Shown here piece by piece: positions 1-27,238 of a DNA stretch of 29,177 nt. Every line of letters begins with the position of its first letter. Positions within the stretch are counted from its first letter, which is position 1. The notes below the pieces were generated by a model. The model had not been told where the DNA came from and made no database searches. It saw nothing but the letters and a program-made list of their open reading frames with translations. This DNA comes from a virus: positions 1 through 29,177 of the IMG/VR virus record IMGVR_UViG_3300010885_006736. One strand, given 5' to 3'. Both the position numbers and the translations under genes were made by a program.

Positions 1-1412
1 ATCCAACTAGCTCCACCAGCAATAGCACTGCCAACAGCAGATGCTTTATTGCCTATCCAATCAGCACCAGCAGATGCTTTATTGCCTATCCAATCAGCAC
101 CAGATTTAATTCCACCCATAGCAGAAGCACCCATAGATTTAATTCCACCCATAGCAGAAGCACCCATAGATTGCATTGATTCCCAAATGCCAGTAGTTTT
201 AGCACCAGATGGAGATTGAGTGGCAGTAGCAGTAGTTGGAACTGGTTCTGGTGTAGATGAACCACCTTCAGTCTGTAACTTCATTCTCTTATTGTATTCT
301 TCAACATCAATTTTACCAGAAGCATAATCTTGCATGTTCTTTTGTTCTGGTGACATCTTTGCTGCTTTTTCTTGCTCTGTTTCACCAAAACCAAGCATAC
401 CTTTAATACCCTGATATGCTTTTACACCATATTTACCAGCAACGCCACCAATATATCCACCAGCCTTAGAACCCAACCAAGCACCAGCTGCAGTTCCAAG
501 TGGTCCAAGAGCAGATCCTAAAGCACCACCAATAAGTGCACCACCAGTAGTTCCCGCTGTATCACCAAGTGCTTCTCCCTGAAGTACATTACCTTGATCA
601 CGAGTTAATGCACCAGATTTAACATTGGCTTCAACTTCATTTGATTTGTCTATGTTGCCCATGACATCATTGACTACGTTGAAACCAGCAAGTCCTAAAC
701 CAACTGCTCCAGCTAATGGTCCAGCACCAGCTATAGCTGACATTCCTCTACTAACAAGTCCCGATGCACCTGGAGACATAGCAGCTAATCCTCTACCAAG
801 ACCCATTCCAACGCCACCACCTGGTGCAGCCATACCAGCTGAAAATGCTTCACGACCAGCAGTCATTCTGTTACCAATTGAATCAACTAATCCCTTACCA
901 CTAGTAGCAACTTTTTTAAGATTACTTTTAAGTCCACCAAAGAAAGTGCCATCAGAATTTTTAGCATTTTCCTTATATGATGTAATTAGTTTTCCCAATC
1001 CCTCATCGGTAGATTTTTTTAATCCAGAAATACCTTCAATAAGTTTATTGAGTAACACATGTTGTTCTTTATCGGAATCTGTTTTTTGTTTATCAGATTC
1101 TTGTTGATTTTCAGTTTCAACAGTACCAGATACTAATGCGGAGCCAGCATTTTTTGGTTGATTTCTTAAAGTTGCTGCTAAATTTAACTCAAGAGTTTTT
1201 GCTATACTACCCATGATATTTTTAATATCAACTAGAGTCTTTTCCATTGTCTCTTGACCAACTAATTGTTTAGTTCCTTTATCATCAAGCGATACTATGA
1301 CTCGCTGAAAATCATTTTCATTTGCAGCTGACTTGGCTGATGAATTAGCTGATGAAGATCTCTGTCTTTGTAAGACAGCATCATTAAAGGAAACTACATT
1401 AGTATTAGCCAT
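1..1412 (-). CDS. Probable tail tape measure protein (gp29-like), N-terminal part, runs off the window
   Basis: An open frame starts at the ATG at 1412-1410 and continues for 470 codons to the window edge without a stop, so the C-terminus is missing. The protein begins MANTNVVSFNDAVLQ. It has a polar, probably helical N-terminal third, then a long Gly/Ala-rich hydrophobic stretch (roughly residues 190-340), then short tandem repeats near residues 416-459. A Gly/Ala-rich hydrophobic region plus short repeats with regularly spaced aromatic residues is typical of tape measure proteins, which set tail length and fill the tube before DNA ejection. The gene directly follows gp26-gp51, where a tape measure would be expected behind frameshifted tail chaperones. 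Its start overlaps the end of the gp51 frame by 8 bases. I identify it by composition and position, not by a diagnostic motif; another hub or tail protein is possible. Confidence 0.55.
   Translation of the reverse strand, partial: MANTNVVSFNDAVLQRQRSSSANSSAKSAANENDFQRVIVSLDDKGTKQLVGQETMEKTLVDIKNIMGSIAKTLELNLAATLRNQPKNAGSALVSGTVETENQQESDKQKTDSDKEQHVLLNKLIEGISGLKKSTDEGLGKLITSYKENAKNSDGTFFGGLKSNLKKVATSGKGLVDSIGNRMTAGREAFSAGMAAPGGGVGMGLGRGLAAMSPGASGLVSRGMSAIAGAGPLAGAVGLGLAGFNVVNDVMGNIDKSNEVEANVKSGALTRDQGNVLQGEALGDTAGTTGGALIGGALGSALGPLGTAAGAWLGSKAGGYIGGVAGKYGVKAYQGIKGMLGFGETEQEKAAKMSPEQKNMQDYASGKIDVEEYNKRMKLQTEGGSSTPEPVPTTATATQSPSGAKTTGIWESMQSMGASAMGGIKSMGASAMGGIKSGADWIGNKASAGADWIGNKASAVGSAIAGGASW
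36..101 (-). repeat. Two perfect 33-bp tandem units (11-residue repeat)
   Basis: Positions 36-68 and 69-101 are identical. On the coding strand each unit encodes GADWIGNKASA. The unit length is a multiple of three, so the frame is kept. The single Trp recurs every 11 residues, a spacing reported for tape measure repeats. Confidence 0.9.
102..167 (-). repeat. Two perfect 33-bp tandem units (second 11-residue repeat)
   Basis: Positions 102-134 and 135-167 are identical and encode MGASAMGGIKS twice, directly before the other 33-bp pair. The sequence differs from that pair but the period is the same, so the whole block of residues 416-459 keeps an 11-residue periodicity. Confidence 0.9.
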
Positions 1413-1593
1413 ACTGTTTACTCTCTGCTCTTTGTTTTTCTTGTTCTAGATGTTGTAACAACATCGCAATATAAACTTCTCGTTCGAACGGTATCATATT
1501 TTCTAATTCCGTCAGGCTGTATTTGTGGTACTGCATCATCGCGAAATTCGTTTTATAATAGTTAGCCAAACTATCATGACAAAGCAGTACTAG
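1405..1593 (-). CDS. 51: gp51-like baseplate hub assembly protein, -1 frame extension of gp26
   Basis: In the -1 frame relative to gp26, 62 codons are open from the gp26 stop to a TAA at 1405-1407. The product contains YYKTNFAMMQYHKYS, then a segment reading LTELENMIPFEREVYIAMLL, then a charged helical tail. I recognise this pattern from the gp51 'baseplate hub assembly catalyst' of T4-like phages. The first in-frame ATG (1539-1537) comes 18 codons in, has no Shine-Dalgarno sequence, and would remove family-like residues lying before it. The simplest reading is a fusion made by -1 frameshifting at 1593-1599, giving a product of about 298 residues. Otherwise it is a separate 44-residue protein from 1539. 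The end overlaps the next gene by 8 bases. Gene identity is fairly sure; the expression mode is inferred. Confidence 0.75.
   Translation of the reverse strand, partial: LVLLCHDSLANYYKTNFAMMQYHKYSLTELENMIPFEREVYIAMLLQHLEQEKQRAESKQYG
1555..1577 (-). other. Predicted RNA hairpin downstream of the slippery site
   Basis: On the minus strand ATGATAGTT (1577-1569) pairs with AACTATTAT (1563-1555) around the 5-base loop TGGCT. This gives a 9-bp stem with one G-U pair. It starts 15 bases after the slippery heptamer, further than the usual 5-9 bases for a frameshift stimulator, so its role is uncertain. Confidence 0.45.
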
Positions 1594-2300
1594 AAAAAAT
1601 TTTGAACACCCTCCAGTATTGTTCTGTTATGTCCACCACATGCTTGACAATCAAACTCAACTACATGTTGAAACTTAGGCATTGTTGAAAAGAAAGATTC
1701 TAGTTTATCAAATTGTTCTTTGGTAAGATTTTCAACAAACTCTCTTAATTCTGCTTTAGTTTGTTCTTTCGCATGAAACAATTCAGTATCAGTATAAATT
1801 GTTTCAATGCAATCAATAATTATATCGATAACATTCTCTGGGTCATCAAATCCTTTATCGATTTTCTTTAAGATATCTAAATTTGGATACTTCATTATTA
1901 CGCCAACAGTATCAAAAAGATCAATCTTATTTGTATGATCTGAATTTTTAGTAACCTGTAGTTGAGAGACATCTAGACGTAAAGTATATTTGTTTTTCTC
2001 ATTAGCACAATGACCGCATGTAAACACTAGGTCAGAATATTCACCAACTGATTTAGCTCTAATTTGCGAAAAGATGTATTCTAAATCAAAAATTGCTAGG
2101 TTATTAACATCAACTTTATCTGTTACACATGATTGAATAACTGACTTCAAAGTGCTGAGCATTACATCTAAGTCTTCACTTTGCTGAGCAATCATTAATG
2201 CTTTTTCGTCTTTAACCAGAAATGGTCGATATTTAATTTCTTTCCCAGTTGAAGGTATAATCAACGAGTATAGTGGCGTGTTTTGTAATGGTAAACCCAT
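1590..2300 (-). CDS. 26: Baseplate hub subunit gp26-like (T4 baseplate protein family)
   Basis: The product has 236 residues, against 208 for T4 gp26. In T4, gp26 is needed for hub assembly. Two CxxC knuckles, C95/C98 (TCGHC) and C218/C221 (DCQACGG), look like the two halves of a zinc ribbon on either side of a helical middle. This is the pattern I know from gp26-like proteins of cyanophages. The start at 2300 is supported by GGAG about 9 bases upstream, inside the end of the small terminase gene. The stop TAG directly abuts a slippery heptamer, so two products are likely: gp26 alone and a gp26-gp51 fusion. By position and expression mode the pair resembles the tail-assembly chaperones (G and GT) of other long-tailed phages. 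Confidence 0.75.
   Translation of the reverse strand: MGLPLQNTPLYSLIIPSTGKEIKYRPFLVKDEKALMIAQQSEDLDVMLSTLKSVIQSCVTDKVDVNNLAIFDLEYIFSQIRAKSVGEYSDLVFTCGHCANEKNKYTLRLDVSQLQVTKNSDHTNKIDLFDTVGVIMKYPNLDILKKIDKGFDDPENVIDIIIDCIETIYTDTELFHAKEQTKAELREFVENLTKEQFDKLESFFSTMPKFQHVVEFDCQACGGHNRTILEGVQNFF
1593..1599 (-). promoter_or_regulatory. Slippery heptamer T TTT TTC for -1 ribosomal frameshifting
   Basis: On the minus strand the last sense codons of gp26 read AAT TTT TTC followed by TAG. This forms the canonical X XXY YYZ heptamer (U UUU UUC) in the correct phase and directly against the stop codon. After a -1 slip, translation continues as CTA GTA CTG into the gp51 frame. The stop next to the A-site codon would favour pausing. 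Confidence 0.75.
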
Positions 2301-2728: not shown

Positions 2729-3220
2729 TTATCCGTCGTTACGAGTATTTCTTGCGGGTGGATCATTAGGATCTAAACCAAATCCTCCACCAAATCCAGA
2801 TGCTGTGGCAATTGGTGTTGGTTTTGGTGCGCTAAAAGTTGGAGTTGTAATAGGGGCTGGGCTAGACGGGAAACCGAATCCTCCTGCTGGCGTAGGGCTA
2901 GGTGTTGAAGGGATGCTTGGTGATAAGTTTGCTCCGCCATTATTTGCTCCTGCTAATTTTTCTTGAGTACGACCCATAGCAGCGATACCAAGAACAGCAC
3001 CCATTGCTACGTGAAATAAACCAGCACCTTGTAGTGTTAATGGTTGCCATTGTGTTTGAACTGCACCATGGCTTAATGATTGTAAAAGACTCCACATTAC
3101 TGGAGCAAGTACGAAGTCAAAACAACAAACTCCCATGTACATCCAACCCATCATTGGACGCCATTTTGAGTTCATCCAATCTTCTTTCTTTTGTTCGCTT
3201 GCGCTAATGTTCTCTGACAT
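2729..3220 (-). CDS. Probable holin (GTA-holin-like, small membrane protein)
   Basis: This 163-residue protein begins with a short charged segment, then KWRPMMGWMYMG and two hydrophobic stretches (about residues 23-49 and 61-83). It ends in a long Pro/Ser/Gly-rich tail that is probably disordered. The 'KWRP..GW' entry into the first membrane helix resembles the three-transmembrane holins of gene-transfer-agent type, which make holes in the inner membrane to release endolysin. The start is supported by AAGGA 8 bases before the ATG. No endolysin gene lies next to it in this window. The holin role is inferred from family resemblance and topology; a virion membrane-interacting protein is an alternative. 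Confidence 0.55.
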   Translation of the reverse strand: MSENISASEQKKEDWMNSKWRPMMGWMYMGVCCFDFVLAPVMWSLLQSLSHGAVQTQWQPLTLQGAGLFHVAMGAVLGIAAMGRTQEKLAGANNGGANLSPSIPSTPSPTPAGGFGFPSSPAPITTPTFSAPKPTPIATASGFGGGFGLDPNDPPARNTRNDG

Positions 3221-3879: not shown

Positions 3880-4478
3880 ATGCTAGCCTGTGAGTCTTTC
3901 CATACTTTTTCTTTGGGTGCTTTTACGAAGCGTTCAACTGGGAGTAGCATTGCTGTTGCCCAATCATTAACATCCACTTTCTTAAAAGCAGTCTTTACAT
4001 GTGGTAAAAGATAATGTTTGATACATGGTTCTGCCATTTTAAATTTTGATACGCCAGCTATAATTGACCATGAATATTTCAATCTAGTAGTTCCATCCAT
4101 CTTATCATTATTCTTAAATACCATCAAACGATCTAGTAAACGAATGCGTAAAGGATAAGGTAGATAGTGCATATTCAAACCCATAAAACCACCAGGAGCA
4201 GTTGCATAGGGAAATACTAAAGGAAACCTGTCATAGTAAGGTAGGTCTGCTTTAGTCTTAGGGTCATAAACATACATATACAGGTTACCAGGAATAATAC
4301 GTGATTTAAGAGAAGAATTATCCTCTCTCATTAATCTCTGTGGAGTTATACCTTGCTTACTAAGAAGCAATACCTGTTGATTATACCATGCACGAGACTT
4401 TCTTGCTGCAGTTTTGAGATCGTATTTATTACGCTCAAACGTCTCATGCATAGATGGATTTTTAGTTGTGGTAGCCAT
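3876..4478 (-). CDS. Conserved T4-like virion protein, possibly DNA end protector gp2-like
   Basis: This 200-residue protein carries SRAWYNQQV, IIPGNLYMYVYDPK, LPYYDRFPLVFPY and GGFMGLNMHYLPYPLRIRLL. I know these segments from a conserved family next to gp4 in far T4-like phages, which I recall being annotated as the DNA end protector gp2. T4 gp2 is longer (274 residues) and protects packaged DNA ends from host RecBCD. The place directly after gp4 fits, since T4 has genes 2 and 4 adjacent. I could not confirm the gp2 assignment from a catalytic or binding motif. A CTAAATA late-promoter motif ends five bases before the ATG, so part of its mRNA may be leaderless. It overlaps the next gene by ATGA. 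Confidence 0.45.
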   Translation of the reverse strand: MATTTKNPSMHETFERNKYDLKTAARKSRAWYNQQVLLLSKQGITPQRLMREDNSSLKSRIIPGNLYMYVYDPKTKADLPYYDRFPLVFPYATAPGGFMGLNMHYLPYPLRIRLLDRLMVFKNNDKMDGTTRLKYSWSIIAGVSKFKMAEPCIKHYLLPHVKTAFKKVDVNDWATAMLLPVERFVKAPKEKVWKDSQASI

Positions 4479-17280: not shown

Positions 17281-20200
17281 ATGACTACATCTTCTTTAAT
17301 GAAGACCACTCTGCATAATTCAGTTGCAGATGGCATCTACAACGAGGTTATTTCTAGATACACAAGATACTACTATTTCTTGGGTAAAACCCTCTCATGG
17401 GAAGATGAGTTAACTCCACCATTTCCAATTGACAGTTACGCTTATGAACTTTCTACTCGTAATGAAATTATTACGATGAAAGAAATTAAACCAACTGACC
17501 TTGCTTATGTTATTGAAAGAAGTAACTGGGTTGAGGGAACTGTATATGATCAGTTTGATGATCAATATTCTACTGAAGTTCAGGGTATTGATTTAGTTGC
17601 TGGTGGTTATAGTTATGGTTCTGCACCAAATGTTTATATTGGTTCTGAAGGTTCTGTTACATGGCGTGCATCTACTAATTATGTATATGGTACCATGATT
17701 AAAGTTAATGGTAGTTCAAAAGTGTATGTTGTTACCAATACTGGTGTTTCTGGAACTACTGCACCAACTCATACTACTGGAACTGAATTAAATGGAACTG
17801 TGTCATTAAAATATATCGCACATAATGATGCGAATGGTTCTGGTGCAACGGCAACAGCAACTGTTCTAGATGGTGCGGTTATTGATATTCAATTGACACA
17901 TCGTGGTTCTGGTTATACATATAGCCCTTCAGTAACAATTATTGGTGGTGGTGGTGCAAATGCTTATGGTGATGCTGTAGTTACTGTTGCGCCATCTGGT
18001 ACTCAGAAACTAGAAGATGCTATGTTTTATGTTGTTACTGATGAGTATAATGTATATCAATGTATTGATAACAATAATAGTGCGCCTTCTACAGAAAAAC
18101 CAACAGGAACTACTGTTGATGCAATTAAAACTAATGATGGTTATATTTGGAAATTTCTTTATAATATTCCAATTGCTTTAAGGAATAAATTTTTAACTGA
18201 TCAATACATGCCAGTTGTTACTGCACTACGTGATCAGTTTTACTCTGCTGGTAGTTTGAAAACTGTTCGTATTGATCAGGCTGGTACTGGTTATACTTCT
18301 GGTACAATTACTGTTCAGGGTGATGGATTTGCCACTGGTGAAGAGATATGGTTAACTGGATATTCTATTGATGATGTTGGTTCTGGATATATTGTAGCAA
18401 CTATTTCAATCGATCCTCCATTTAGTGGAGTATCTACATGGTTACCAAATCAAACTGCTTTGGTTAATCAAAAAATAACATTCCAAAATAACGTATACCG
18501 TGTTGCAGTTTCTGGCGTAACTGGTCCAGAAGCAACTTTATGGACAGCTAATACTGCAGTATCTAGTTCTGATCATCTTTATTATTCTGATAGATTATAT
18601 ACTGTTACTTTTGCTGGAACTACCAGTGCTGTTGCTCCAATTCATACAAGCGGAACTGCAACAAACGGAACTGCAACATTATTATACGTTGGAACTACCA
18701 GTGATGCTGGTCCAGTCCATAGAAAAGGTAATGTCAAAAACGGCACCACAGTTTTAGAATACATTGGAACTACTCCAACCGCAGAAGCAGTTATTGAAGA
18801 TGGTGAGATTACAAATCTCACGATATATGGTATGTTAAAACAGATACAGATTTTAACTGGTGGTTCTGGATATACTTCTCCACCAACTGTTAATATTACT
18901 GGTGGTGGAGGATTGGATGCGGCAGGAATAGCAATATTAAATGAAAACGGATCTATTATCCGAGTTGATATTACTGATCCAGGATATGATTATATTAGTG
19001 CACCAAATATTACGTTTGGTGATATCTGGACAGCTAGCACTGCAGTTAGTATTGGTGATCAACTTTATTATTCAAATAGATTATATACAGTTACTGGTGC
19101 AGGGAATACAGGTTCTTCCGCTCCAGTTCATCTATCTGGAACATCATTAAATGGAACTTCACAATTAACATATGTTGGTTCTACCGCAACTGCTGAAACT
19201 AGTATTAAATATGGTTCTGGTTATAACTCATATCCATCAATTACAATCAGCAGTGACTCTGGTGAAAATGCTTCTGCTAACTTTACTGGTGAAAAAACTG
19301 AAGCAAGTTTAATTCCAATTTTTGCATCAGATACTATTGGACAACAGTGGGAGCCAGAAACTTCGTATGGTGTTGGATTAAAAGTTTGGTATAATAATAA
19401 ACTATATACATGCACCACTGCTGGTATTAGTGGGGTTACTGAACCAACACATACAACTGCCACACAAATAAATGGCACTGCAAGATTTTTGTTTGAAGGA
19501 TATTTTGGACAGTTAATTGGAATTCAAATTAATGATCCAGGTGTAGGTTATACTTACGCCAACCTTAACGTAACTGGGGATGGTTACTCTGCAGCAGTTT
19601 CGGCAGATTTGTCTCCTGGAGATGTAAATACACTACAAGCAAATATTGAATTACTAACAGTTGATGGGCGTATCATGAACTGCCCAGTTATTTCTGGCGG
19701 TTATGGATACGGTAATGCAGTTATTACAATTACTGGCGATGGCACTGGAGCATCTGCAGAAGCAGTTTTATCCAATGGTAAGATTACAAAAATTAACATG
19801 ACCAACTATGGTGCTGGTTATCGTTGGGCAACAGTTACAATTACTGGTTCTGGATTTGGTGGAAAAGCACGTGCTATTATTGGACCATATGGTGGGTTTG
19901 GTAAAGAAGCATTAAATAATCTTTTTGCTCATACGTTAATGTTCTACAGTAATGTATCCCAAGACAAAAATCAGGGTTTTGATGTAAATAATGATTACCG
20001 TCAACTTGGAATTATTAAATCACCTAGACAATATGGTAATACATTACCATTAACATCTGTTCTAGCCTCAGGATGTTGGGCTGTTGCTGGTACTGCTAAT
20101 ATAACTTTATATCCTGTTGATTCTATATTATATAAAACTGATGATAATAAACAGTTTAGAATTGTTACTAATAATGGTAGTGCCCTTCTACTTCAGGCAT

Positions 20201-20388
20201 TAGATAATGCTGCAGTAGTTACAGGAAATAACTTTAGAAATGAGGCTGGTGACGTATTTACAGTATCTGCAGTAACTCCACCTTCAGTAGATAAATACTC
20301 TGGTGATCTAATGTTTATTGATAATAAACAAGCATTTACTCCAACAGCAGACGAAACAGTTACACTTAGAACAGTTTTAAGGTTCTAA
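17281..20388 (+). CDS. 8: Baseplate wedge subunit gp8-like, greatly enlarged by inserted repeats
   Basis: This 1035-residue protein (T4 gp8 has 334) shows both ends of gp8. Near the N-terminus YYYFLGKTLSWEDELTPPFP and SYAYELSTRNEI match T4 'IYITFGRSEPW...FAPPYPTDS'. In the middle DGYIWKFLYNIP matches 'DGYVWEYLFEIP'. At the C-terminus YSGDLMFIDNKQAFTP matches 'HSGEMIYMENRPPI'. Between these are two repeat families. One is a CBM-like module of about 52 residues at residues 127-179, 420-471, 582-633 and 689-739. The other is Gly-rich 'GSGYTxPPTVxITGGG' repeats scattered from about 101 to 865. gp8 links wedges to outer parts; here it may also bind surface glycans. The gp8 identity rests on these matches; the binding role is inferred. 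Confidence 0.75.
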   Translation: MTTSSLMKTTLHNSVADGIYNEVISRYTRYYYFLGKTLSWEDELTPPFPIDSYAYELSTRNEIITMKEIKPTDLAYVIERSNWVEGTVYDQFDDQYSTEVQGIDLVAGGYSYGSAPNVYIGSEGSVTWRASTNYVYGTMIKVNGSSKVYVVTNTGVSGTTAPTHTTGTELNGTVSLKYIAHNDANGSGATATATVLDGAVIDIQLTHRGSGYTYSPSVTIIGGGGANAYGDAVVTVAPSGTQKLEDAMFYVVTDEYNVYQCIDNNNSAPSTEKPTGTTVDAIKTNDGYIWKFLYNIPIALRNKFLTDQYMPVVTALRDQFYSAGSLKTVRIDQAGTGYTSGTITVQGDGFATGEEIWLTGYSIDDVGSGYIVATISIDPPFSGVSTWLPNQTALVNQKITFQNNVYRVAVSGVTGPEATLWTANTAVSSSDHLYYSDRLYTVTFAGTTSAVAPIHTSGTATNGTATLLYVGTTSDAGPVHRKGNVKNGTTVLEYIGTTPTAEAVIEDGEITNLTIYGMLKQIQILTGGSGYTSPPTVNITGGGGLDAAGIAILNENGSIIRVDITDPGYDYISAPNITFGDIWTASTAVSIGDQLYYSNRLYTVTGAGNTGSSAPVHLSGTSLNGTSQLTYVGSTATAETSIKYGSGYNSYPSITISSDSGENASANFTGEKTEASLIPIFASDTIGQQWEPETSYGVGLKVWYNNKLYTCTTAGISGVTEPTHTTATQINGTARFLFEGYFGQLIGIQINDPGVGYTYANLNVTGDGYSAAVSADLSPGDVNTLQANIELLTVDGRIMNCPVISGGYGYGNAVITITGDGTGASAEAVLSNGKITKINMTNYGAGYRWATVTITGSGFGGKARAIIGPYGGFGKEALNNLFAHTLMFYSNVSQDKNQGFDVNNDYRQLGIIKSPRQYGNTLPLTSVLASGCWAVAGTANITLYPVDSILYKTDDNKQFRIVTNNGSALLLQALDNAAVVTGNNFRNEAGDVFTVSAVTPPSVDKYSGDLMFIDNKQAFTPTADETVTLRTVLRF
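17659..17817 (+). repeat. CBM-like module, copy 1 (gp8)
   Basis: Residues 127-179 of the gp8-like protein. The pattern is W-x-A-S-T-x-Y-x-x-G, then VYVVTNTG, then APTHTTGTELNGTVSLKYI. It resembles small chitin-binding-type modules, which use a leading Trp and a 'Y..G..V...G..Y' core. Confidence 0.6.
18538..18693 (+). repeat. CBM-like module, copy 2 (gp8)
   Basis: Residues 420-471: LWTANTAVSSSDHLYYSDRL, then APIHTSGTATNGTATLLYVG. A partial extra copy (GPVHRKGNVKNGTTVLEYIG, residues 477-496) follows. It is similar to copy 3 at DNA level as well as protein level. Confidence 0.6.
19024..19179 (+). repeat. CBM-like module, copy 3 (gp8)
   Basis: Residues 582-633: IWTASTAVSIGDQLYYSNRL, then SAPVHLSGTSLNGTSQLTYV. 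Runs such as TGGACAGCTA and AGATTATATAC are shared with copy 2, indicating a relatively recent duplication. Confidence 0.6.
19345..19497 (+). repeat. CBM-like module, copy 4 (gp8)
   Basis: Residues 689-739: QWEPETSYGVGLKVWYNNKL, then EPTHTTATQINGTARFLFEG. This copy is closer to standard carbohydrate-binding modules in its W-x-x-x-T-x-Y-x-x-G start. Confidence 0.6.
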
Positions 20389-20425: not shown

Positions 20426-23400
20426 ATGTTAGATTTTAATACCGAACCATATAATGATGACTTTGATGAGAATAATAAATTCTATCGAATTTTATTCCGT
20501 CCAAGTTATGCTGTTCAGGCACGTGAACTCACTCAAATGCAGACTATTCTGCAGAATCAAATCAAACGCCATGGTGACCATGTATTCGCACAGGGTGCTA
20601 TGGTTATCCCAGGACAGATCTCTCTTGATACAAAATTTAATTACGTAAAATTAGCAGTATTTAACTCAGCTGGCGATGTAACAGAAACCTTTATTGCAAA
20701 TTTAGCAGGGAAAACTCTTCAGGGTACTTCTGGTGTAACTGCTCAAATATTAGCGATTGTTAATGCAGATGCGGAAGATCCTACAACTGTATATGTTCGT
20801 TATACATCAGCTGGTACAGATAATTTAACTAAAACATTCTCTAACTCAGAAGTATTAACTACAACTGATGGAGAATATACAATAACTGCAGCCTCAGCAG
20901 ATTCAGTTGGTATTGGTTCTGCTGCTATTATCGAACGTGGTGTTTATTACGTAAATGGTTATTTCGTTCTTTGCGACAATCAAACAATCGTACTTGACAA
21001 ATATACAAACTCACCTTCATATCGTGTTGGTCTAAAGGTTATTGAAAGCAAACTTACTCCAGAAGATACTGGATACGAAATGCTTCTCGATAATGCACAG
21101 AACAGCTTTAACTATGCTGCTCCAGGCGCACATCGTTATTTTATTGACCTTATTTTAACTAAGGTTGCTCCTGATTCTGTAGATGACGTAGATTTTATTG
21201 AACTATTATCTACTGATCAGGGTCAGGTTAAACGTGAAGTTACTAAAACAGCATACGCTGAAATAGAAAAAACATTGGCTCGTCGCACTTATGATGAGTC
21301 TGGTAACTATACAATTAAACCTTTTGCAATTGATATTCGTGAACATCGCAGTAATAATCGTGGTGCATGGAAAGAAAACACTTCTTATCTAATTGGTGAT
21401 GTAGTTACAAGTGGTAATTATACCTACGTTGCTAAAAACTCTGCAACTTCAGTTAATATTCCTCCAACACATTTAGAAGGAACATCCTATGATGGTGGTT
21501 CATCTACTGGTGTTAATTGGGAATATAATGAGAAACCACTTTATAATCGTGGCGTCTATACACCAGAAAATGGTGGAGATGAAGCTAAACTTGCCGTTGG
21601 TATGGAACCAGGTAAAGCATATGTTCAGGGTTATGAAATCGAAAAGATTGCCACTGAATATGTTGATGTTGCCAAAGCACGTGATTACGTTCAAACAGAT
21701 GATACGTATCTAACAACTCCGCTTGGTAATTTTGTTTATGTAACAAATATTAACTCTTTGCCACCATTCGATTCAACCAGTGGTTGCCCATCGATTACAA
21801 TTTACAATAGATTTACTACTTCGGTTGGTGTTGCTCCAGCAAGTGCTGTTGCAATTGGTACTGCTCGTATTCGTGGTATTGAATGGGACAGTGGAACTAT
21901 CGGAACACAAAATGCTGTTTATAAACTATACCTATTTGATGTTCAAATATCAACTGGGTATGACTTTGCACGTAATGCTAAATCTTTCTACTATAGTCGT
22001 AGTGATTCAAATCTTAACTTTACTGCTGATATAAATGCAATTACTACTAACATAGTTGGTTCTGGAACAACATATAGTTCTTATCCAGGAACTCGTGGTG
22101 CGTCAACTACAATCTATGGTGTTGGAACTGCATTCTCAAGTGGAACAACTACTAGCCCAGCACTTAAAGTTGGTGACTATATTTACGTAGGTTCTACTGC
22201 AAATCGTCGCAGAGTTGTTACAATTACAAATAACCAACAGATTGTTGTTGATACATCAGTAACTGTTGATGGTGGAATTATTAGTTTGATCACATCTTCT
22301 GTTCAAGAACCACAAAATGCTAGATTAGTTTATCCACTTCCAAATTATGCTATTAAATCTGTTCGTGATGCAAATTCTACTAAACAGATTATTTACTATG
22401 GCATGCAATATATTAGCGGAACTACTGGTTCTGGTGCTGGTGGTTCCTGTACTTTAACTATTAATACTACTGCTGGCGTATTTGCTGACTCTGCCGAAAA
22501 TGATAATTACATAGTTACATGGTATGATTCTGGATCTGGTGGTGTAACAATTAAACCAACTTCTATTAGTAGTGGTGGTTCTTCATCAATTAGTTTTACT
22601 TTACCAGATACATACGCTAATTCTAACTTTGTTGTAATGGCAACAGTTAAGAAAATTGGTTCTGATGGTGGTGAGAAAACTAAAACTCTTGGAACTGTAA
22701 CCCAGAATTATACAACTCAAGCAGCTGCGACTAAAGCGATCCTATCTCTTGGTAAATCAGACGTATTAAGAATTAAATCCATCATGATGGATACTGGTTC
22801 ATTTGCATCTCCAAGTGGCACTTATGGTATCAGTATTTACGATCGTTATGATTTCGATAATGGTCAACGTGATACGCACTATGACCTTGGTCGTTTGATT
22901 TTAAAACATTCATACTCTCCACCTTCGGCACCAATCTCTGTTGTGTTTGAGTATTTTGTTCACTCATCTGGTGATTACTTCAGTATTAATTCATATCCAG
23001 GAACTATTCAATTAGTTGATATTCCTTCATACAATGGTGTTTCTCTGCGTGATGTATTAGATTTCCGTCCTCGTATTAATGATACTGGAACTGCATTCTC
23101 TGGATCTGGTTCATCATTCGCAATGACACCAAAACGTGGACAAGACGTTACAGTTAGTTATTCATACTACCTATCTCGTAAAGACAAAATTGCAATTGAT
23201 TCTTCTGGTCGTTTCTTTGATCTTGCTGGTGTTTCTGCACTAGTACCAGGAGAACCACTTGATCCAACATTGGGTATGGTTCTTTACAAATTAACACTAG
23301 AGCCATATACTTTTGGTACATCTAACGCAAATATTGTTATTGATCAGGTTGATAACAAGCGTTATACAATGCGTGATATTGGTAAATTAGAAAAACGTAT

Positions 23401-26400
23401 TGATAATTTAGAATACTACACTTCTCTATCACTATTAGAGCAAGAAACAAAATCACTTACTGTTACTGATTCAACTGGTCTAGATCGTTTTAAGAATGGT
23501 TTTATTGTTGATTCTTTTACTGGTCATAATGTTGGTAACGTACTATCTCCAGACTACCTATGTTCTGTTGATATGCAGAAAGGTGAACTACGTCCATTCT
23601 ATGTAATGGACAACGTAAACTTAGTTGAAAGTTTATCTAGCGATAATGATCGTGCCACTGCTGGTTATCAGATATATGGTGATGTTATTACATTGCCAGT
23701 TATTGGTCATGAGCCATTAGTAACTCAACAATATGCTTCTCGTCTAGAGAATATCAATCCATTCGCTATCTTTACATTCCTAGGTGATGTTCGTTTAAAC
23801 CCATCTTCAGATGACTGGTTTGAAACTAAGTATGCGCCAGAAATAGTTCGTAACGTAGAAGGTAGTTTTAATACTATTGCTGCTCTTGCAACACAGGCTG
23901 GCATTCTTGGTACTATCTGGAATGCATGGCAGGTAAACTGGATCGGTCAACCAGTTCCAGTTGGTGGATCTTTGGTTCAGTATACAACTGGTTCTAACTG
24001 GGCAAATCAACGTGCGTTGGAAGAAGGTGCCACATATATTAACGTAGACGAATTTAATAATCGCTTCGGTGGTGGTTCTGGTGGCGGTCCAGCTCGTCAG
24101 GTTTATGTTTCTACTTCTGCTCAAACTGGTACTAGATCAAGGGTTGGTGTTAAATCAACTTTAGCCGTTCAGTTCGAACGCCAGATAGTTGATGATAAAG
24201 TTGTTTCAACTGCGTTGATTCCTTATATCCGCAGTCGTAATATTCTTGTTCAGGTTAAGAAATTAAAACCAAATACAAAATTCTATCCATATTTTGATAA
24301 TATTGATGTAGGTTCTTATTGTACTCCATCTTCTATCTTTACATATACGCTGCCTTCTGCAACTTCAACAGACTTTGAAACATCAAAGAATTCTGGTGCT
24401 CTTGCGCAAGAAGCTGCTCGTATTGTTAATAATATTTCTGGTGTATTAACTGCAGATGATTCTGGTAATATGTGCCTAAACGTAGGTGACGTAATTACTG
24501 GTGCATCTTCTGCTGCAACTGCTGTAGTTGTTGGTAAATTCTACGATCAAGAAAATAATATTCGTAAACTACATGTTATGAATATTAAGGGTACGTTTAC
24601 TACAAATGAAACTATCTCTGGATCAATCTCTGGTGCAACGGCAACTTTAACTGTAAAAGAAAATAATAGATCTCAGGGTGGTGCTCTTGTAACTAATTCT
24701 ATTGGTGACTTAAACTTTGTTTACCACATTCCAAATGAAGATGCTTTGCGATTCCGTACTGGTACTCGTGAATTTAAACTTCTTGACGTAAGCACAGTTA
24801 CTGGTCAACAAACCTCTTCTGCAAAAGTTCAATATGAAGCTACTGGTATTTTAACTACTCGTCAGCAAACTATTAACTCGATTCGTAATGCTCATATTAT
24901 TCAAGAGATTGTTAATGAGAACGATACTATTTCCAGAACTATTGAACGTGTTGCACGTGATACTGGTTGGTATGACCCGCTGGCTCAAACATTCTTGGTT
25001 AAATCTCCTGGTGGTGCATTCTTAAGTAAAGTAGACATTTTCTTTGCCACTAAAGATGCAAACATTCCAGTTACACTTCAGATTCGTGAAGTAGTAAATG
25101 GTTATCCTGGTAAGAAGATTCTACCTTTCTCTGAAGTAACATTAAACTCACATCAGGTTAATATTTCTTCAACTACTGTCGCCATGACTGATGGTTCTGG
25201 TGCAAACTATCCTAAGTACGACACACCAACTACTTTTACTTTCCCAAGTCCAGTATATGTTCAGGATGCAACTGAATATTGTATCGTTCTTGCTTCTGAC
25301 TCAAACAATTATAAAGTTTGGATCTCTCAGATGGGTGATCAGATTCCTGCTTCTGCAAGAACTATTTCTGAACAACCATATGCGGGTGTTCTGTTCAAAT
25401 CACAGAACGCATCGACTTGGACTGCAAACCAAGATCAGGATTTAAAATTTACCGTATATCGTGCTAAGTTTAACACTGACGTAACTGGTAGCGTTGTATT
25501 TACAAACGATGTTCTTCCAGTTAAAGTTATCGATACTGATCCTTTTGAAACTGTTTCAGGAACTAATAAAGTTCGTGTATGGCACACAAACCATGGTCTA
25601 TTCTTAAACTCTAAAGTATCGTTTGATAATTCAGATACAACAATATACGCTGGAACTACTTCTTCTGGTGGAACTATTACTTGTAACTCATCAAACACTA
25701 CTGTTACTGGTAGCGGAACATTGTTTATCGACGACTTTACTGCTTCTGGTGCTGCACTATTCCGTGCATCTGATGGTAAGTGTATTGGTATTGTTGACCA
25801 TGTAACTAATGATACTACATTAGTATTGAAGAACAATGCTTCTGTAACTATCGGTACTGGCGTTGCATACACTTACGCTCTTCCTGTGCATGGTATTCCT
25901 GTAACAGAAATTTACAAAAATACTCTTGGTGCAGCAATCGTACATAGTATTAGCGATGTTGATCTTGATTCTTATACTATTACCGTAACAACTAATGCAG
26001 ACATTACTGGTTACGCTGGTGGTGATACTGTTCGTGCTGGTCATAACATAATCTATGATATTGCTCAACCAAGTGTTCAGTCTTTAAGTTTTTCAGATAC
26101 TACTTGTGAATTCAAGTTTAAGAGTACTTCTGGTAAATCCGTAGATGGTTCTGAATCACCTTATATACTTGGTGAATATTATGGTGTTACTCCAAATGAT
26201 AGTAATTACTTATACAGCCCTGCAGTTATTGCATCTACTGTAAATGAAAATGCTTTTGTTAGTTCTAAGACTGCTTTCTTACAAGCAAATATCTCTTCAA
26301 CAAATAATGCACTTTCACCAATTATTGATACTCATAGAACTTCATTAATTACTATTTCTAATAAAATTAATAATCCACGTGAAGATAATATTAACGTGGC

Positions 26401-27238
26401 AGAATTAGATAATAGAACTCTATTTACTGGTGCCACTGGCGCATATTCCTTCGCCAATGCTGGAAGCGCATGGTCGGCAAGTGCGTCAAAAGCAGAAGGT
26501 GATCAGATCTATTACCTTGGTAATCTCTATAGAGTAACTACTGCTGGAACAACTGGTGCATCTGCTCCTACTCATACCACTGGTCTTGCTACTAATGGTA
26601 GTGCAATTCTTTTATATGTTGGTAATTCTGCAACGATTACTTCTTCTAACGCAACAGTTTGTGCTTTAATGCAGACAGTCGCTGTTGGTAAATATATCAC
26701 TATTTCTGGATCAACTACTAGTTCAAATAATGGTACTTACCTAATTACTGGGTTCGTTGGTAATGGTTCCACAACTGGTACTATTACTGTTCTTAAGGCA
26801 AATAACTTTACTGCTGAATCTGCGCTATCAGGAACTACTATTGCGCTAAGAACTCTATTCGTTGATGAAATTGCTCCAAAGGGAAGTTCTTCAGTTAATA
26901 AATATATCTCGAAAGCAGTAAAGTTTGCTAATCCTTCTAACTTCTTTAGAATTAGATTATCAACTAATTGTCCTGCTGAGTCTAATGTATTAGTCTACTA
27001 TAAGACTAATCCAGTTGGATCTACTCAAGATTTAGAATTGGTGAACTGGACACTAACTGGACCAGATGTTGCAATTAAGAAAGTTCAGAATGGCGATGAT
27101 ACATCGTTCTTTGATGTAGATTATTCTGAAGAAGGTTTGGCACCATTTGATTCAATGGCTGTTAAGATTGTACTTCAGTCTACTAGCAGCTCTGCCATTC
27201 CTCGTGTCAAAGATTTAAGAATCATAGCCTGTGCATAA
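20426..27238 (+). CDS. Giant DUF4815 virion protein, probable peripheral baseplate or tail fibre component
   Basis: This 2270-residue protein starts with the DUF4815 signature: MLDFNTEPYNDDFDENNKFY, then ILFRPSYAVQARELTQMQTI and HGDHVFAQGAMVIPG. DUF4815 proteins are large virion proteins next to gp8 in many far T4-like phages. Further conserved blocks are PYIRSRNILVQVKKLKPNTK (about residue 1265), GWYDPLAQTFLVKSPGGAFL with KVDIFFATKDANIPVTLQIR (about 1515-1560), and a C-terminal RVKDLRIIACA. CBM-like modules lie at about residues 314-367 and 2015-2066. No catalytic motif or transmembrane segment was seen. It lies where T4 has genes 9-12, so it may replace pins or short-fibre attachment; that is inference. 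The start fits AGGATAGAG upstream, and the end overlaps the next gene by 8 bases. Confidence 0.75.
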   Translation: MLDFNTEPYNDDFDENNKFYRILFRPSYAVQARELTQMQTILQNQIKRHGDHVFAQGAMVIPGQISLDTKFNYVKLAVFNSAGDVTETFIANLAGKTLQGTSGVTAQILAIVNADAEDPTTVYVRYTSAGTDNLTKTFSNSEVLTTTDGEYTITAASADSVGIGSAAIIERGVYYVNGYFVLCDNQTIVLDKYTNSPSYRVGLKVIESKLTPEDTGYEMLLDNAQNSFNYAAPGAHRYFIDLILTKVAPDSVDDVDFIELLSTDQGQVKREVTKTAYAEIEKTLARRTYDESGNYTIKPFAIDIREHRSNNRGAWKENTSYLIGDVVTSGNYTYVAKNSATSVNIPPTHLEGTSYDGGSSTGVNWEYNEKPLYNRGVYTPENGGDEAKLAVGMEPGKAYVQGYEIEKIATEYVDVAKARDYVQTDDTYLTTPLGNFVYVTNINSLPPFDSTSGCPSITIYNRFTTSVGVAPASAVAIGTARIRGIEWDSGTIGTQNAVYKLYLFDVQISTGYDFARNAKSFYYSRSDSNLNFTADINAITTNIVGSGTTYSSYPGTRGASTTIYGVGTAFSSGTTTSPALKVGDYIYVGSTANRRRVVTITNNQQIVVDTSVTVDGGIISLITSSVQEPQNARLVYPLPNYAIKSVRDANSTKQIIYYGMQYISGTTGSGAGGSCTLTINTTAGVFADSAENDNYIVTWYDSGSGGVTIKPTSISSGGSSSISFTLPDTYANSNFVVMATVKKIGSDGGEKTKTLGTVTQNYTTQAAATKAILSLGKSDVLRIKSIMMDTGSFASPSGTYGISIYDRYDFDNGQRDTHYDLGRLILKHSYSPPSAPISVVFEYFVHSSGDYFSINSYPGTIQLVDIPSYNGVSLRDVLDFRPRINDTGTAFSGSGSSFAMTPKRGQDVTVSYSYYLSRKDKIAIDSSGRFFDLAGVSALVPGEPLDPTLGMVLYKLTLEPYTFGTSNANIVIDQVDNKRYTMRDIGKLEKRIDNLEYYTSLSLLEQETKSLTVTDSTGLDRFKNGFIVDSFTGHNVGNVLSPDYLCSVDMQKGELRPFYVMDNVNLVESLSSDNDRATAGYQIYGDVITLPVIGHEPLVTQQYASRLENINPFAIFTFLGDVRLNPSSDDWFETKYAPEIVRNVEGSFNTIAALATQAGILGTIWNAWQVNWIGQPVPVGGSLVQYTTGSNWANQRALEEGATYINVDEFNNRFGGGSGGGPARQVYVSTSAQTGTRSRVGVKSTLAVQFERQIVDDKVVSTALIPYIRSRNILVQVKKLKPNTKFYPYFDNIDVGSYCTPSSIFTYTLPSATSTDFETSKNSGALAQEAARIVNNISGVLTADDSGNMCLNVGDVITGASSAATAVVVGKFYDQENNIRKLHVMNIKGTFTTNETISGSISGATATLTVKENNRSQGGALVTNSIGDLNFVYHIPNEDALRFRTGTREFKLLDVSTVTGQQTSSAKVQYEATGILTTRQQTINSIRNAHIIQEIVNENDTISRTIERVARDTGWYDPLAQTFLVKSPGGAFLSKVDIFFATKDANIPVTLQIREVVNGYPGKKILPFSEVTLNSHQVNISSTTVAMTDGSGANYPKYDTPTTFTFPSPVYVQDATEYCIVLASDSNNYKVWISQMGDQIPASARTISEQPYAGVLFKSQNASTWTANQDQDLKFTVYRAKFNTDVTGSVVFTNDVLPVKVIDTDPFETVSGTNKVRVWHTNHGLFLNSKVSFDNSDTTIYAGTTSSGGTITCNSSNTTVTGSGTLFIDDFTASGAALFRASDGKCIGIVDHVTNDTTLVLKNNASVTIGTGVAYTYALPVHGIPVTEIYKNTLGAAIVHSISDVDLDSYTITVTTNADITGYAGGDTVRAGHNIIYDIAQPSVQSLSFSDTTCEFKFKSTSGKSVDGSESPYILGEYYGVTPNDSNYLYSPAVIASTVNENAFVSSKTAFLQANISSTNNALSPIIDTHRTSLITISNKINNPREDNINVAELDNRTLFTGATGAYSFANAGSAWSASASKAEGDQIYYLGNLYRVTTAGTTGASAPTHTTGLATNGSAILLYVGNSATITSSNATVCALMQTVAVGKYITISGSTTSSNNGTYLITGFVGNGSTTGTITVLKANNFTAESALSGTTIALRTLFVDEIAPKGSSSVNKYISKAVKFANPSNFFRIRLSTNCPAESNVLVYYKTNPVGSTQDLELVNWTLTGPDVAIKKVQNGDDTSFFDVDYSEEGLAPFDSMAVKIVLQSTSSSAIPRVKDLRIIACA
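21365..21526 (+). repeat. CBM-like module, copy 5 (DUF4815 protein)
   Basis: Residues 314-367: AWKENTSYLIGDVVTSGNYT, then IPPTHLEGTSYDGGSSTGVN. It has the same W-x-x-x-T-x-Y-x-x-G-D-V core as the gp8 copies. It is diverged in the second half. Confidence 0.6.
26468..26623 (+). repeat. CBM-like module, copy 6 (DUF4815 protein)
   Basis: Residues 2015-2066: AWSASASKAEGDQIYYLGNL, then SAPTHTTGLATNGSAILLYV. It is closer to gp8 copies 2 and 3 than to copy 5 of its own protein, suggesting exchange of modules between the two genes. Confidence 0.6.

Follow-up and report, generated by a model that had tools for sequence, protein, structure and literature searches.

Our analysis of the window, by which we mean the whole 29,177-nucleotide stretch of DNA, indicates that gp26 and the reading frame called gp51 are very probably parts of a single gene subject to programmed -1 ribosomal frameshifting, which would give a short (TAC-N) and a long (TAC-NC) tail-assembly chaperone.

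Reading frames at the end of gp26

As listed in Table 1, gp26 lies on the minus strand, and its 3' end reads CAA (1604-1602) AAT TTT TTC TAG (1592-1590). An earlier note on this DNA had read T TTT TTC as an in-phase -1 slippery heptamer flush with the gp26 stop, and this is what the sequence contains, with the heptamer in the X_XXY_YYZ phase and abutting the stop codon. Past the heptamer the -1 frame is open for 62 codons up to a TAA at 1407-1405, a stop overlapped by the beginning of the next gene, whose ATG is at 1412; the product of the -1 frame in the window is FFLVLLCHDSLANYYKTNFAMMQYHKYSLTELENMIPFEREVYIAMLLQHLEQEKQRAESKQYG*. The note had described such an open frame of gp51-like character and a fusion of about 298 residues; the conceptual gp26-gp51 fusion indeed has 298 residues, and the -1 frame matches phrog_634. 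The gp26 part scores 201.4 bits against PF12322, above the Pfam gathering cut-off of 24.5. The first ATG of the -1 frame (1539-1537) is without a Shine-Dalgarno-like sequence ahead of it, and so is a TTG at codon 10.

Table 1. Features at and around the gp26-gp51 junction (window coordinates).
Feature	Position	Strand	Evidence or remark
gp26 (short tail-assembly chaperone, TAC-N), 236 aa	1590..2300	-	PF12322 T4_baseplate E 2e-59; phrog_150 E 1.5e-60; AlphaFold N-terminal domain nearest HK97 TAC 2ob9
Internal Shine-Dalgarno-like GGAGGG	1609..1614	-	GGAGG ends 10 nt before heptamer
Nearly invariant stretch in the window's clade	1514..1603	-	only position 1570 varies
Slippery heptamer T_TTT_TTC	1593..1599	-	sequence; kept in 34/38 clusters, 170/192 loci
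-1 frame, putative C-terminal domain of long chaperone (TAC-NC), "gp51" in relatives' annotation	1405..1599	-	phrog_634 E 9.4e-28; homologous to T4 gp51 200-245
TAG stop of short product	1590..1592	-	sequence
Predicted stem-loop 2 nt past heptamer	1528..1590	-	z -2.2; pairing probability 0.93-1.0; unchanged in all six sequences
Next gene, putative tape measure protein	3..1412	-	position and size; cut by window's end

Conservation of the junction and the T4 genes

Alignment of gp26-gp51 junctions from many distant T4-like phages had been proposed as a check. We fetched 80 relatives from IMG/VR, 79 of which cover the junction, and cultured phages together with further scans brought the number of junctions to 192, forming 38 clusters at 70% protein identity. 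Both the heptamer and the -1 frame residues across the stop proved to be conserved. All 79 IMG/VR relatives carry T TTT TT(C/T) either next to the gp26 stop or with one codon in between, and their -1 frame encodes FFLxxLxHESLxNYYKxNFALMQYHKYSL or a near variant of it. In the clustered set, T_TTT_TT(C/T/G), together with a conserved -1 frame, abuts the stop or lies one codon ahead of it in 34 of the 38 gp26 clusters, which span Kyanoviridae, Schizotequatrovirus, Ceceduovirus, Pootjesviridae and Menderavirus. Across these 34 clusters the Phe codon TTT and the preceding NNT codon are more frequent than the codon usage of the respective gene would predict (log10 P of -7.8 and -11.0, respectively), and the joint probability of TTT plus NNT is about 10^-19, a figure that treats the clusters as independent and, given their shared ancestry, is approximate and a guide only.

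The coding constraint extends over the junction. Four residues of the -1 frame (F1, F2, N18 and F19) do not vary at all, and H8 and L11 are almost as constant. All six are among the most conserved and lie ahead of the first ATG in the window, confirming that gp51-like residues begin before an ATG that has no ribosome binding site of its own. In addition, upstream of the heptamer the -1 frame is often closed by a stop codon only a few codons away, which rules out an upstream start in those cases.

Of the four clusters without the heptamer, two are Ackermannviridae-like, one is a T4-type phage in which the genes are separate, and one is Vibrio phage K452. The Ackermannviridae-like loci (L090 and L178-L195) keep the -1 frame after gp26 (FHLIFEIDLLSYFVMCDELK), their gp26 genes end in GAR ATT TTC ATY TAA, without an X_XXY_YYZ heptamer, and L193-L195 have a TAATG stop-start overlap where the other loci have TAATT. 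In phage K452, gp26 ends near position 3073 with CTT TTT GCG TAATGATG; this is not a classic heptamer, an ATG overlaps the stop, and the -1 frame is conserved, and here stop-start coupling may possibly take the place of a frameshift. A scan of genome contigs with the K452 gp26 found no relative.

In profile comparisons, the gp26 relatives match T4 gp51 residues 13-197 (E 4.5e-9), and the -1 frame matches residues 200-245 (E 1.5e-7; 3e-6 in pairwise BLASTP), which implies that T4 gp51 corresponds to the long form in one open reading frame, and T4 gp26 to the short form. T4 gp51 is a single continuous protein with about 48 extra residues, and PF12322 is matched by both T4 gp51 (177.5 bits) and T4 gp26 (215.6 bits), against the cut-off of 24.5. 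T4 gp26 thus resembles the window's short form, as both carry PF12322, and gp51 resembles the long form along almost the whole of its length; unlike the window, however, T4 has two paralogues, encoded on opposite strands, and no heptamer. The heptamer is absent from T4-type gp26 genes, whose -1 frame does not code for the gp51 domain. In Aeromonas phages, tblastn placed the window's -1 ORF inside a continuous gp51. On a 236-kb contig, changes at the T run place gp26 and gp51 in frame with each other (locus L146, 1201-2091); either the short form has truly been lost there, or this is a sequencing error. The separate T4 genes and the frameshift of the relatives are a clean case, already published, of recoding swapped for gene duplication. 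The proposal in the earlier note that T4-type gp26 and gp51 are the same system as G/GT is supported, with the correction that T4 itself has two genes and does not frameshift.

It could be argued that gp51 is a separate short protein made from an internal start (ATG 1539 or the TTG at codon 10), by initiation of its own or coupled to gp26, since annotations list gp26 and gp51 as distinct genes and an ATG overlaps the gp26 stop in L086, L087, L093 and L094. We regard this as very improbable, because the first ATG of the window follows the conserved F1-F19 and lacks a Shine-Dalgarno sequence, the first ATG in several clusters comes only at codon 33-35 or later, and a separate gp51 leaves both the conserved heptamer and the two-part single chain of T4 gp51 unexplained. 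The run of six to eight T residues at the site would also be compatible with transcriptional instead of ribosomal slippage, giving a long mRNA. The chance of this is very small in our judgement: most sites have six T followed by C, which is short for polymerase slippage, the X_XXY_YYZ register relative to the codons is always kept, and the Shine-Dalgarno-like element and, in the window's clade, the downstream stem are as expected for slippage of tandem tRNAs. Hence, a programmed -1 ribosomal frameshift is the reading that we follow below.

Candidate RNA elements around the slippery site

Upstream of the heptamer, a match of at least 4 nt to the anti-Shine-Dalgarno sequence is present at the place of GGAGGG in 31 of the 34 clusters, compared to 8.5% at other gp26 positions; the same nucleotides double as codons of a conserved Leu-Glu-Gly.

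Downstream, the window and its five close relatives differ at a single position over about 90 nt starting at the heptamer, and a scan with a DNA pattern for more near relatives returned only the five known contigs. In this clade synonymous differences amount to 3% in -1 codons 1-25, compared to 38% in gp26 and 29% further down, and the synonymous suppression past the heptamer has a combined p of 7e-8 over two independent pairs; in other clades the suppression is mostly weaker. This near invariance suggests an RNA stimulator. The predicted stem, which is stronger than the 9-bp hairpin discussed below, combines 7 bp (GUACUGC/GCAGUAC, 1590-1584 with 1534-1528) and an inner 5 bp (1582-1578 with 1540-1536), and its distance of 2 nt from the heptamer is nearer than the usual spacing of a stimulator. 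Rfam gave only chance-level matches for the element, and no structure of fixed shape common to all clades was found, with folding energies varying around a mean z of -1.2. We consider it about an even call that a dedicated RNA element drives the frameshift in the window's clade; this element would start at the slippery site, span some 90 nt and have a 12-bp composite stem and possibly loop contacts, and it would be under nucleotide-level selection stronger than in other T4-like groups. The conserved stretch could also stem from recent recombination, which would compete with the stimulator only and not with the frameshift. There are few haplotypes, and the window and L002 are identical at synonymous sites in -1 codons 1-58; in other pairs, however, the stretch runs from the heptamer to about +80 nt, and codons 28-58 and gp26 differ, making recombination a rather doubtful source. 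The stretch is the new detail here, as no description of it was found in what the citing papers relay of Vladimirov et al. 2022.

Two other candidate structures were rejected. The 9-bp hairpin pointed out in the earlier note does exist (1577-1569 with 1563-1555, one G-U pair, -5.7 kcal/mol), but it is probably not the stimulator, as it lies 15 nt past the heptamer, which is the wrong spacing, and a T-to-C change at 1570 disrupts it in four of the five near relatives. A pseudoknot with the downstream UGACGGA was discarded since the partner is not conserved.

The probable tail-assembly chaperone and its relatives

G/GT-type chaperones are encoded directly upstream of the tape measure, and their two products are made in a fixed ratio, are essential for assembly, and are absent from the virion. 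Xu, Hendrix and Duda reportedly described these G/GT chaperones of lambda-like phages in 2004, and the earlier note had likened the layout in the window to theirs. This likeness is supported by the conserved in-phase heptamer, the conserved -1 frame, the one-frame versions in T4 gp51 and L146, and the possible TAC-like fold described below. The lambda gpG/gpGT heptamer differs from the T TTT TTC of the window, and the window's gp26 is larger than lambda gpG and has Cys-rich, zinc-ribbon-like segments; no sequence similarity between the two is claimed. We infer that most ribosomes would stop at TAG 1592 and release the 236-residue short chaperone, while a minority, slowed by the upstream GGAGGG and the folded RNA downstream, would slip by -1 on U_UUU_UUC and read on into the 298-residue long chaperone, whose C-terminal domain is predicted to be helical. 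If the roles follow those of lambda gpG/gpGT, the short part would cover the tape measure protein, and bringing in the tail tube would fall to the C-terminal part.

AlphaFold modelled the window's gp26 with a pLDDT of 86 and the L146 fusion with a pLDDT of 91, the latter with a helical C-terminal domain. A structure comparison with gpG-type chaperones, as had been suggested, ranked the HK97 tail-assembly chaperone 2ob9 first among solved structures, although the match covers gp26 residues 1-85 only, and its Z of 7.7 (rmsd 4.0, 84 residues) is under the tool's clear-match level of 8, so that a TAC-like fold of the modelled gp26 N-terminus is supported, not proven. The next match was 3fgx, with 3klu added when the fusion was the query. 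Both are reportedly tail-assembly chaperones as well (Pell et al. 2013). Sequence searches against solved structures gave no match.

That the next gene encodes the tape measure fits its position and the size of the products at this place in relatives (736-832 aa), but no sequence match to known tape measures was found, and we call it a putative tape measure by position. The counterpart in Vibrio phage PVA23 has a weak match to a tape-measure family (E 2.8e-7), and in HTVC008M a gene annotated 'putative tail tape measure' lies close downstream. Elsewhere in the window, two putative large tail proteins (17281-20388 and 20426-27238) share a repeat of about 40 aa (LYTVTxAGTTGxxAPTHTSGTAxNGTAxLxYVG-like).

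Vladimirov, Gautam and Davidson reportedly found frameshifting in several T4-like groups, and genes 26 and 51 in T4. As cited by PMC10885494 (PRFect) and PMC12846349 (phage Adele), Vladimirov, Gautam and Davidson 2022 (Virology 566:9-15) identified the chaperone genes of T4-like phages, with poly-T -1 signals in TAC-N genes and, in some phages, one short and one fused long gene. The earlier note was unsure whether the arrangement had been described for T4-like phages; going by these two citing papers it had, in 2022, and the frameshift arrangement is real and widespread, and not new. The window shares with these systems, as relayed there, the same genes, a poly-T -1 signal and the logic of a short and a long chaperone, and differs in belonging to an unannotated, uncultured virus and in its clade-specific invariant RNA stretch. 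A passage of Atkins et al. 2016 (PMC5009743) calls G-T frameshifting widely conserved 'except T4', and one of Sullivan et al. 2010 (PMC3037559) reports that the gp51 of cyanophages reaches only about 20% of the normal length and that Aeh1 lacks gp51. A frameshift would explain both the short marine gp51 and the 'missing' one. In Aeromonas phage Asswx_1 (L089), an unannotated -1 ORF with T TTT TTC GCA TAA follows position 4205, and probably accounts for the gp51 missing in the related phage Aeh1.

Taken over a wider and mostly uncultured sample, these data confirm that T4-type gp26 and gp51 are the tail-chaperone pair of other long-tailed phages, and suggest that in hundreds of records the separate entries for gp26 and gp51 ought to be combined.
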